Of a stretch of DNA of 56,101 nucleotides, positions 40,701 through 42,684 are shown piece by piece. The position numbers were made by a program, and so were the translations under genes. The stretch covers positions 1-56,101 of the forward strand of contig DXIO01000085.1 of NCBI GenBank assembly GCA_019112875.1. Reading direction: 5' to 3'. How positions within the stretch are numbered: the stretch's first letter is position 1; each line of letters begins with the position of its first letter. Below the pieces are notes generated by a model, which worked only from the letters and a program-made list of their open reading frames with translations, made no database searches and was not told the origin of the DNA. The DNA comes from Candidatus Aquabacterium excrementipullorum. Lineage in GTDB: Bacteria > Pseudomonadota > Gammaproteobacteria > Burkholderiales > Burkholderiaceae_C.

Positions 40701-41264
40701 ATGGCGAAGTCCGACAAGAAACCAGCCGTCAAGGCGCCCGTGAAAACCGCCGCGAGGCCCGTCACCAAGGCGGCGTCCAAGTCGGCCGTGGGCCCGATCG
40801 ACATCGGCATCTCCGGCAAGGACCGCGAGGCCATCGCCAAGGGCCTGAACGGTCTGCTGGCCGACACCTTCACGCTGTACCTGACCACGCACAACTTCCA
40901 CTGGAACGTGACGGGCCCGATGTTCAACACGCTGCACGTGATGTTCATGGACCAGTACACCGAGCTGTGGAACGCGGTGGACCCGATCGCCGAGCGCATC
41001 CGCGCGCTGGGCGTGTGCGCCAGCGGCTCCTTTGGCGATTTCCGCAAGCTGAGCACGCTGCCGGATGCGCCCAGCACGCCGCCCAAGGCCAAGGACATGA
41101 TCCGCACGCTGGTCAATGGCCACGAGGCCGTGGCGCGCACGGCGCGCTCGCTGTTCCCGCTGGTGGACCAGGCCTCCGACGAGCCGACGGCCGATCTGCT
41201 GACCCAGCGCCTGGATGTGCACGAGAAGGCGGCCTGGATGCTGCGTTCGTTGCTGGAAGAGTGA
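40701..41264 (+). CDS. dps: Dps-family ferritin-like DNA-protection protein
   Basis: Stress protein that forms a 12-mer, oxidises iron with peroxide and can bind DNA. The ferroxidase site is visible in [12 protein letters not shown] (from residue 64) and in [21 protein letters not shown]. An N-terminal extension of about 30 residues is rich in Lys and Ala ([18 protein letters not shown]), the type of tail that binds DNA in E. coli Dps. The total is 187 residues. CAGGAG at 40685-40690 precedes the ATG at 40701. Confidence 0.95.
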
Positions 41265-41302
41265 TCTTTGGCCGCTGGGGTTCAAGCCCTGGCTTTGAGC
41301 AG

Positions 41303-41325
41303 AAGGGGGCCTTGGGGCTCCCTTT
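41303..41325 (+). terminator. Terminator-like hairpin after dps
   Basis: AAGGGGGCC at 41303-41311 pairs with GGCTCCCTT (41316-41324) around TTGG, with one G-U pair, followed by TTG. Confidence 0.65.
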
Positions 41326-41364
41326 GTCGTTTGTGGTGGTGCTTTTTGGAGCTTTCGAGGGGGC

Positions 41365-42031
41365 GAGCGCTTTGTCGGGAGAGCGCGGGGCGCGGGATGT
41401 GGAGGCAGGTGGCCGGACCTGCGGTGGCGGTCCTGCCTGCGGCAGGACTTCCCTCCGATGCTCGCGGCGAGGTGGGGCCGCATGACTCACTACGCGCCTG
41501 CGGCGCTGCGTTCAAACAGATGCGGCCAGTCAGATGACGAAGCATGCGCTGCGCGCATGCCCACCTCGCCACTGCGCTTCTCGGCGCCACCGAAGGCGCC
41601 CGGCCGCCCGCCCCCACATCCCTTTGATCGCCCCGCTTGCCGCAGGCGCAGAAGATCGAGCCGTGCGTACCCTGGAGCGCAAGAGACCATCAGCCATCAG
41701 GTCAGCGCACGACAAATGGCCCGGGGACGTCGCCGCTTGCGAACGCCAGGACGGCGGCCTTTGAATGCGGCGAGCGGGGCGCCAAAGGGCTGAGCCGGTA
41801 TTCGGCCGGGCGCCTTGTTGGCGTCGGAGGCGCGCAGGGAGGGACAGGTTTGCCCCTGGCCTGTGGCCAGGGGATGGCGAGCATGTCTGAGCCCCGAAGG
41901 GGCGAGTTGCGCAGCCACCTGTCCCGGACGAGCACGCGCAGAGCAGTCACGCCGAAGGCGTGACCGCCAACATTGAAGCCCGGCCGAATACCGGCTCAGC
42001 CCCCGCCCCGCGCTCTCCCGACAAAGCGCTC
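41365..42031. repeat. 667-bp non-coding element of nested inverted repeats
   Basis: The 790 bases between dps and the response regulator gene contain no credible gene but are highly structured. A perfect 28-bp pair bounds the element: 41365-41392 (starting GAGCGCTTTGTC) and 42004-42031. Inside it is a perfect 25-bp pair (41787-41811 and 41978-42002). Perfect short hairpins with three-base loops fill the interior: 41430-41448 (loop TGC), 41494-41506 (TGC), 41542-41560 (TGC), 41853-41873 (TGT), 41891-41903 (GAA) and 41946-41964 (GAA). Larger pairs also occur: GGCGAGGTGGG (41466-41476) with 41560-41570, and GGCCGCAT (41476-41483) with 41520-41527. No transposase or target-site duplication is visible. 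It may be an intergenic repeat, a MITE relative or a structured RNA. Confidence 0.85.
41787..42002. repeat. Inner inverted-repeat unit with clustered hairpins
   Basis: This unit is bounded by the perfect 25-bp arms 41787-41811 and 41978-42002. Just inside, TGTTGGCG (41816-41823) pairs with CGCCAACA (41965-41972). Deeper still, GGGACAGGT (41841-41849) pairs with ACCTGTCCC (41917-41925) and encloses two of the triloop hairpins; a third hairpin (41946-41964) lies outside that pair. The symmetry implies a multi-branched stem-loop in RNA or a cruciform in DNA. Confidence 0.8.
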
Positions 42032-42054
42032 ACACCGCCGCAAGCAACGGATCC

Positions 42055-42684
42055 TCAAACCAATCCGTTGCGAATCGCGTAAACCGTCAGTTCAGAGTTG
42101 TTCGTCAACCCCAGCTTTTCCAGCACACGCGCCCGGTACACGCTCACGGTCTTCGGACTCAACAGCAACTGCTCCGCGATGTCCGACAGCCGCTTGCCCG
42201 AAGCGATCATCACCAGCGTCTGCAGCTCCCGGTCGGACAGCTTCTGGTGCGCATCTTCCGGCGCGGGCGTGGTCAGGTTGTCCACCAGCATCTGCGCCAT
42301 CTCGGGCGTCACGTACTTCTTGCCCTGCGACACCGTGCGCACCGCCGCCACGATCTGGGCCGCATCCCCGCCCTTGTTCAGATAGCCGCTGGCCCCCGCC
42401 TTCAGCGCGCGCATCGCGTACTGGTCCTCCGGGAACATCGACACCACCAGCACCTTGAGCTGCGTGCCTTCTTCCTTGAGCACATGCAGCACGTCCAGGC
42501 CGCTGCGGCCGGGCAGGTTGATGTCCAGCACCAGCACGTCGCACGAGCGCTCGCGCAGCAGGGTGCGCAGCTCGCCGTAATCGCCGGCCTCGCCCACGAC
42601 CTCGATGTCGCTGGCGTCGGCCAGGGTGTCTCGGATGCCTCGGCGGATCAAGGCATGGTCGTCGCAAAGAATGACTTTGATCAT
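42055..42684 (-). CDS. LuxR/NarL-family response regulator
   Basis: A 209-residue two-component regulator. The receiver has the acidic pocket (LCDDH), phospho-acceptor Asp in VLVLDINLPG and Lys in YLNKGG. The C-terminal LuxR-type helix-turn-helix reads KLSDRELQTLVMIASGKRLS and ends SPKTVSVYRARVLEKLGL. The ATG at 42684 overlaps the stop of the upstream kinase gene by four bases, so this is a cognate pair. A TTG at 42696 would add four residues and is less likely. Target genes are unknown. Confidence 0.93.
   Translation of the reverse strand: MIKVILCDDHALIRRGIRDTLADASDIEVVGEAGDYGELRTLLRERSCDVLVLDINLPGRSGLDVLHVLKEEGTQLKVLVVSMFPEDQYAMRALKAGASGYLNKGGDAAQIVAAVRTVSQGKKYVTPEMAQMLVDNLTTPAPEDAHQKLSDRELQTLVMIASGKRLSDIAEQLLLSPKTVSVYRARVLEKLGLTNNSELTVYAIRNGLV

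Follow-up and report, generated by a model that had tools for sequence, protein, structure and literature searches.

The DNA between a dps-like gene and a response regulator gene in the window, a 56,101-nucleotide stretch of the Candidatus Aquabacterium excrementipullorum genome, is one copy of a repeat family in which each copy is an inverted pair of multi-branched units of ~260-280 nt around a variable centre. It is all but certain that the family is dispersed and that its fold is conserved. Our preferred reading, to which we give a probability of roughly 0.45, is that the copies are giant REPIN-like elements that would act as a folded single strand, likely RNA, would spread as REPINs do, and would have a cis role at transcript ends.

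An inverted pair of structured units between convergent genes

The whole element (41365-42031, assigned to neither strand) lies between a gene for a dps-like protein of the ferritin family (PF00210; 40701-41264, plus strand) and a convergent gene for a LuxR-type response regulator (PF00072 and PF00196; 42055-42696, minus strand). Profile and model matches both identified unit A, of type A, at 41367-41644 on the plus strand with its outer end toward the dps-like gene, and unit B, of the shorter type B, at 41765-42029 on the minus strand with its outer end toward the response regulator. Between them is a variable centre (41645-41764), which is 120 bp long at this site and has no strand. The outer arm of unit A (41365-41392, plus strand) is a 28-bp perfect inverted copy of the outer arm of unit B (42004-42031, minus strand). 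Inside these arms each unit has a branched arm, likewise unstranded: that of unit A (41394-41622) is closed by a stem of 41394-41416 with 41600-41622 that is 87% complementary, and that of unit B (41787-42002) by a perfect 25-bp stem of 41787-41811 with 41978-42002.

The earlier note had described the 28-bp outer and 25-bp inner arms as perfect inverted copies, which we confirmed letter by letter, and had counted at least six hairpins with three-base loops, of which six are readable in the sequence. The two outer arms pair because they end two inverted repeat units; the outer ends of other pairs are often non-identical, as seen in the first alignment block. The longest perfect inverted match is 28 bases, compared with 8-16 in 20 mononucleotide shuffles. 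The fold energy was -447 kcal/mol for the plus strand (shuffle mean -330, z -17.8) and -459 kcal/mol for the minus strand (shuffle mean -342, z -13.0), and on neither strand did any of 20 shuffles fold as low. These shuffles, of both fold energy and inverted-match length, rule out a chance origin of the palindromes, as the note had supposed.

A codon-usage gene caller called no gene within 41365-42031, which agrees with the earlier claim that no convincing coding frame is present; mechanical open reading frames wholly within the element reach 111 aa. No sigma-70-like promoter was found by a promoter scan of 41200-42120, and a terminator scan found no U-run terminator inside the element. The same kind of scan placed an intrinsic-terminator-like hairpin 3' of the dps-like gene and outside the element (41302-41325, plus strand), which alone is not significant (one found, shuffle mean 0.9). 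A search of the window region against Rfam 15 returned five matches at E values up to 5, each scoring well below the gathering threshold, and six other loci returned none, which excludes a known Rfam family; for a group II intron, no Rfam intron model was among the matches of the window region or the six other loci.

A repeat family of large inverted dimers

A DNA search of the own genome yielded 55 matches, diverged at 68-90% identity with the self match excluded, and a model search found 20 units there. The second copy on which the earlier note had made its proposal of a repeat family depend is thus present many times over. Motif rules sorted 155 near-full distinct units into 112 of type A (profile-defined length ~277 nt), 21 of type B (~262 nt) and 22 of neither type; by eye, 15 of these 22 make up a third type, all of them in genomes G004, G016, G034 and G063, and the others resemble type A. 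Lengths fall at 255-289 nt in 148 of the 155 and at 240-254 nt in the other 7. Both A/B and A/A pairs are present, as judged by eye.

The inverted arrangement is the rule. Among 97 genus clusters scored (10 more at contig edges were dropped), the unit order was '+-' in 63, '+--' in 3, '++-' in 1, '--' in 1 and '-+' in none, and single units were '-' in 19 and '+' in 10. In other genera 29 of 40 clusters were '+-' and 11 were single. Whole elements of ~530 bp recur within a genome, with identities to one reference copy of 89-97% at six places in G155, 79-96% in G227 and 91-96% in G160. Some elements of G155 (flanks of L334, L336 and L337) appear by eye to be nested in a further outer inverted repeat.

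Pair centres range from -23 to 2371 bp, with 63 of 75 at 15-237 bp. When the 10 of 75 centres longer than 400 bp were checked for cargo, no transposase was recognised (frames by eye, five centre proteins against Pfam). Several centres carry other genes: a Phd/YefM antitoxin-like gene (L054 2208-2525), a PIN7-domain gene (L191 2465-3124) and a gene for a PEP-CTERM protein (L192 2689-3447). L051 2340-4712 and L059 359-1816 are an orthologous site in two species, with a right flank 94.9% identical, where the gene between the inverted units encodes a DUF1963 protein in one case and is a 206-aa frame in the other; from this comparison the centre content seems exchangeable. The centres of L051, L053 and L059 share one stretch of ~220 bp, and their genes otherwise look unrelated. 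Six-base tandem repeats were seen by eye in or near the centres of L055, L057, L065, L177, L179, L180, L182, L184 and L217, elements that come from G003, G062 and G027. At L058 (1875-3301) an IS110-family transposase gene (PF02371, PF01548) splits a unit at about unit position 213-216; this insertion may have been aimed at the palindromes.

The core model matched 24 of the 41 genomes sampled in the genus, with as many as 42 units in one genome, and 111 of 200 sampled genomes of the bacterial family, in 84 of 141 genera. In the family-wide search at most 14 candidates were scored per genome and per-genome counts are lower bounds. A further model (R1), built from mixed unit types with 33 pairs, served as a finder only. 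Scanned for a motif, named genomes yielded 30 stretches, which come from Aquabacterium, Acidovorax, Delftia, Xenophilus, Oryzisolibacter, Ramlibacter, Rubrivivax and records with less precise names. A DNA search of 61 genomes, drawn from the genus and from 24 further families of its order, matched 21 genus genomes and one other weakly. Only 1 of 72,556 plasmid records matched (Comamonas, over 16-18% of the query) and none of 50,697 phage records matched the window copy, which excludes a plasmid or phage repeat. Among the open-access papers listed in literature searches, no title or opening of an abstract describes the repeat.

The fold is conserved by compensatory change

We aligned 38 type A units in the minus sense and derived a consensus fold with RNAalifold. 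The fold has 86 pairs in 12 helices, and both sides have changed in a compensatory manner at 62 of the 86. Paired cells made up 96.5% (82.1% in shuffles). The covariation score was 0.422 compared with 0.158 after shuffling, and none of 500 shuffles scored as high, although relatedness of the units can inflate this test. Slid structures reached at most 0.083, in a comparison that favours the unslid fold since the structure was derived from the same alignment. The earlier note had let its case hang on compensatory changes in homologues, and such changes are present. Many unpaired columns of the unit alignment are also invariant or nearly so, and the minus strand folds better than the plus strand in 126 of 156 full units.

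Compensation was also seen at fixed sites. In 19 orthologous type A unit pairs, whose counts are not all independent because some units enter several pairs, there were 63 double Watson-Crick changes, 31 mismatches and 10 other doubles, along with 55 minus and 14 plus wobbles. This comparison of sequences suggests that selection on the fold continues at fixed sites. At L079/L171 and L077/L169 divergence is greater in the units than in the flanking DNA, most clearly at L079/L171 (flank 95.6% identity, unit 79%), and gene conversion between copies could lie behind some of the double changes.

Wobble pairs are kept mainly on one strand

A structure that acts on one strand tolerates G-U pairs there, which are seen as A-C on the other strand. 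Wobble pairs in the family are retained at about 3:1 in favour of the strand that runs from the centre to the outside, which is the minus strand of the unit, is read toward the flanking gene and is antisense to that adjoining gene. Over 85 pairs with a Watson-Crick share of 80% or more in 112 type A units, there were 208 minus wobble cells (A-C on plus) and 68 plus, or 52:12 by columns; type B units gave 25 and 2 cells, or 17:2 by columns. Parsimony counted 170 minus and 44 plus wobble events, with 127 events to mismatches. At unpaired positions G>A and C>T were equal per base by parsimony (43 per 1062 and 65 per 1689 letters), and in conserved unpaired columns T>C was somewhat commoner than A>G (0.041 vs 0.026). 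A set of 108 units, mostly from other genera (motif-scan units plus other genera, Aquabacterium loci included), gave wobbles of 120:41 toward minus and columns of 26:10 (P 0.011). Single genomes lean the same way (G155 28:5, G160 16:11, G227 21:11, G246 3:1), except G171, which has no bias (8:8). In the minus sense one U.G wobble has come close to fixation (34 of 38 units), and the minus strand is A-rich at its unpaired consensus positions (23 of 61).

It is well supported by these comparisons that one strand of the unit would act as a single strand. From the family counts, the favoured strand would be the window minus strand for unit A and, from the type B counts, the window plus strand for unit B. 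The earlier idea of a site that serves only to form a cruciform is disfavoured because the wobble bias favours one strand. The idea of a structured non-coding RNA fared better, with covariation and the one-sided wobble bias in its favour, both of which are comparisons of sequence. We infer that RNA is probably the acting form rather than single-stranded DNA; the same wobble bias would arise from a hairpin of single-stranded DNA that contains G.T mismatches.

These data also bear on the view that the element is an old MITE-like relic without function, its palindromes kept by template switching and gene conversion. The lack of a called gene, the divergence of the own-genome matches and the deletion remnants at orthologous sites (see below) would all suit such a relic. 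Correction of palindromes should, however, be strand-equal, and the wobbles fall about 3:1 on one strand, while many unpaired columns scarcely vary. We regard a neutral relic as very improbable.

Copies lie downstream of genes

Gene context was counted with a simple codon-usage gene caller for clusters with genes on both sides. The genus loci are search matches rather than all copies, some of them are orthologous, and four pairs with a gene between the units (L051, L054, L058 and L192) count as two clusters each. With these limits, 66 of 97 genus clusters were convergent, 28 codirectional and 3 divergent, and the other adjacent gene pairs at the same loci were 27 convergent, 170 codirectional and 66 divergent (n=263), a strong convergent enrichment (66/97 vs 27/263, P 1e-26). 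In the own genome 11 of 13 clusters were convergent. In five genomes of other genera, 40 clusters were 10 convergent, 29 codirectional and 1 divergent, and 67 control pairs were 7, 41 and 19, respectively. Convergent enrichment is not clear there (10/40 vs 7/67, P 0.06), and the convergent share varies, from half in G160 to none in G155 and G246; divergent sites are avoided (1/40 vs 19/67, P 0.0006). Non-divergent placements make up 94 of the 97 clusters in the genus and 39 of the 40 from other genera. For the family, the rule is thus placement downstream of one gene or more; convergent placement is a rule in the window genus only. Convergent placement as a family-wide rule is ruled out by the 10 of 40 outside the genus, and because the enrichment is unclear there, a role tied to convergent genes is not general.

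The units come very close to genes. Among 142 gene ends facing an outer unit end, 49 were less than 30 nt away, only 2 of these 49 with another terminator before the unit, and on 21 of the 142 sides the stop codon was less than 15 nt away; in some copies it stands directly before the unit end. Such proximity, together with the convergent bias in the genus, would suit a host-selected two-way transcription terminator or insulator between convergent genes. Several observations speak against that explanation, which we consider improbable. An intrinsic terminator of their own already serves 44 of the 142 facing gene ends (33 of the 44 at a distance of 60 nt or above; among other gene ends, the control, 23 of 259), the dps-like gene has its own terminator-like hairpin, and no U-run terminator was found inside the window element. 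The favoured strand is antisense to the adjoining gene, most copies outside the genus are not between convergent genes, and most relatives do without the element at the orthologous sites.

In codirectional contexts, the unit that the upstream gene could transcribe in the favoured sense was no better kept by score (8 of 17), and single units there had no orientation preference (4 vs 5). A cis role through read-through is therefore not supported by the codirectional test.

Gain and decay at orthologous sites

In the own genome, as in eight relatives, the dps-like gene and the regulator lie side by side and converge. The own genome has 790 bp between them; in G025 the gap is 268 bp and contains a shortened remnant, and in the seven other relatives it is 0-89 bp and holds no unit, from which we conclude that the element was gained at this site. 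This conserved gene order, and the recurrence of the element at many places, make the assembly mis-join that the earlier note had allowed for unlikely.

Two further loci, compared in 25 rows each, also include filled, shortened and empty sites. At the second locus the element is present in G016 and G004 and reduced to a 313-bp remnant in G034; gaps of 3-44 bp occur in 13 rows and gaps of 644-1199 bp that lack a unit in three. The remaining six rows include one with a unit and no clear partner gene. At the third, the filled sites are those of G016 and G063, a 115-bp remnant is left in G034, G004 carries a unit with the partner gene out of reach, G014 has 29 bp that look scar-like, and 15 rows have gaps or overlaps of -81 to 76 bp; in the other rows the partner gene is absent or the gap large. 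By this comparison the three ancestral sites were short convergent gaps. The element is dispensable at orthologous sites, because it is absent or decayed there.

Inspection by eye of the few filled and empty sites, where exact ends are not definable, showed no target duplication. The genome-wide search for a parent transposase covered PF01797 only; it had no match in the own genome, and in the genus 12 of the 24 genomes that carry the element have such a gene, as do 10 of the 17 that lack the element (P 0.75), an absence of association. These results do not support the classical MITE suggested by the earlier note. As a separate observation, in several species a Y1_Tnp (PF01797) gene lies ~17-24 kb from one conserved gene (the L197 locus; for example G016:C1 704599 and 727100), which suggests a vertically inherited copy.

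Comparison with known repeats

REPs and REPINs are the closest known systems. As described in parts of two papers (PMC3733652, PMC3116915), REPs are intergenic palindromes of 20-40 bp with a GTAG or CGTC tag that form homo- or heterodimers with variable spacers, show compensatory changes and can supply a stop codon with their ends; the inverted dimers lie near gene ends, between convergent or unidirectional genes, and the REPIN dimer is the replicative unit. The present element is likewise made of inverted dimers (the order is '+-' in 63 of the 97 clusters of the genus and in 29 of the 40 from other genera) and likewise adjoins gene 3' ends between convergent or unidirectional genes. It differs from REPs in unit size, mostly 255-285 nt and multi-branched rather than a 20-40 bp palindrome, and in having no RAYT link. 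It also differs in the tag: scored at the unit ends, with the feet of inner hairpins left unscored, GTAG/CTAC occurred within 14 nt in 4 of 112 type A units and CGTC/GACG in 3 of 112. A RAYT-driven REP is ruled out by the missing PF01797 association and the missing tag at unit ends. The BIME- or REPIN-like family proposed earlier therefore stands as to organisation and gene-end position and fails as to unit size, tag and RAYT link; the element is organised like a REPIN and, because these three differ, is not filed as one.

Other comparisons were less close. Like the BRE (Beta-proteobacterial repeat element), which part of PMC3110155 describes as 75-91 bp, often tandem (VNTR), mostly intergenic and listed in Delftia and Acidovorax, the element is a dispersed, mostly intergenic repeat of Betaproteobacteria; it differs in unit size and arrangement, and is set apart by that description rather than by sequence. 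Burkholderiales-1, a candidate structured RNA motif that has no Rfam accession in the table of PMC2864571, comes from the same order and was compared by its description in that part of the paper. Like a MITE, the element is non-coding and dispersed with inverted ends (28-bp outer arms here, less alike elsewhere); unlike a MITE, its ends belong to branched structured units.

The likeness to REPs bears on the view that the element is purely a DNA repeat, whose hairpins would serve a transposase or recombinase as single-stranded substrates, as REPs serve RAYTs, and which would have no host role. The wobble bias would then reflect the enzyme-bound DNA strand, and gene ends would simply be where insertions are tolerated. 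We take this to be a real possibility, held with less confidence than our preferred reading. The REPIN-like inverted dimers, the gain and decay at orthologous sites, the dispersed near-identical whole elements, the avoidance of divergent sites within and outside the genus with no general convergent rule, and the lack of a promoter in 41200-42120 all fit it, as do REPs with the same position and dimers in the parts of the two papers cited above. The PF01797 results in the own genome and the genus argue against it, as does compensation that appears to continue at orthologous sites, and three ancestral sites that were short convergent gaps would be a narrow target for tolerance alone.

Proposed mechanism and significance

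On our preferred reading, of a giant REPIN-like element acting as a folded strand, each unit would fold on its own, and the strand running from the centre to the outside would act as a single strand, most likely RNA. Copies would be multiplied in a REPIN-like manner by a putative trans-acting enzyme and would be targeted to, or survive at, gene 3' ends. Once inserted, the folded RNA may affect neighbouring transcript ends in cis, by 3'-end protection or as a barrier to read-through, and such an effect would explain the continued compensation at fixed sites. Against this reading stand the lack of a sigma-70-like promoter in 41200-42120, the unclear convergent enrichment outside the genus, the null result in codirectional contexts, the dispensability of the element at orthologous sites, the double changes that gene conversion could have made, and the even wobble count in G171. 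A bolder version, in which inverted pairs of ~275-nt structured RNAs make up a new class of mobile elements centred on RNA, spread into gene 3' ends across a whole bacterial family by way of an RNA or single-strand intermediate and a putative trans-acting enzyme, and then acting in cis on nearby transcript ends, seems to us doubtful.

The family thus adds a structured element in which 62 of 86 pairs show compensatory change, which has no match in Rfam 15 and which was found in 111 of 200 sampled genomes of a large bacterial family. It indicates that REPIN-like organisation can be reached with units about 10 times larger, of RNA-like complexity and with no evident RAYT. Its filled, empty and decayed sites offer a natural panel for the old question of whether such repeats are parasites or devices at gene ends.
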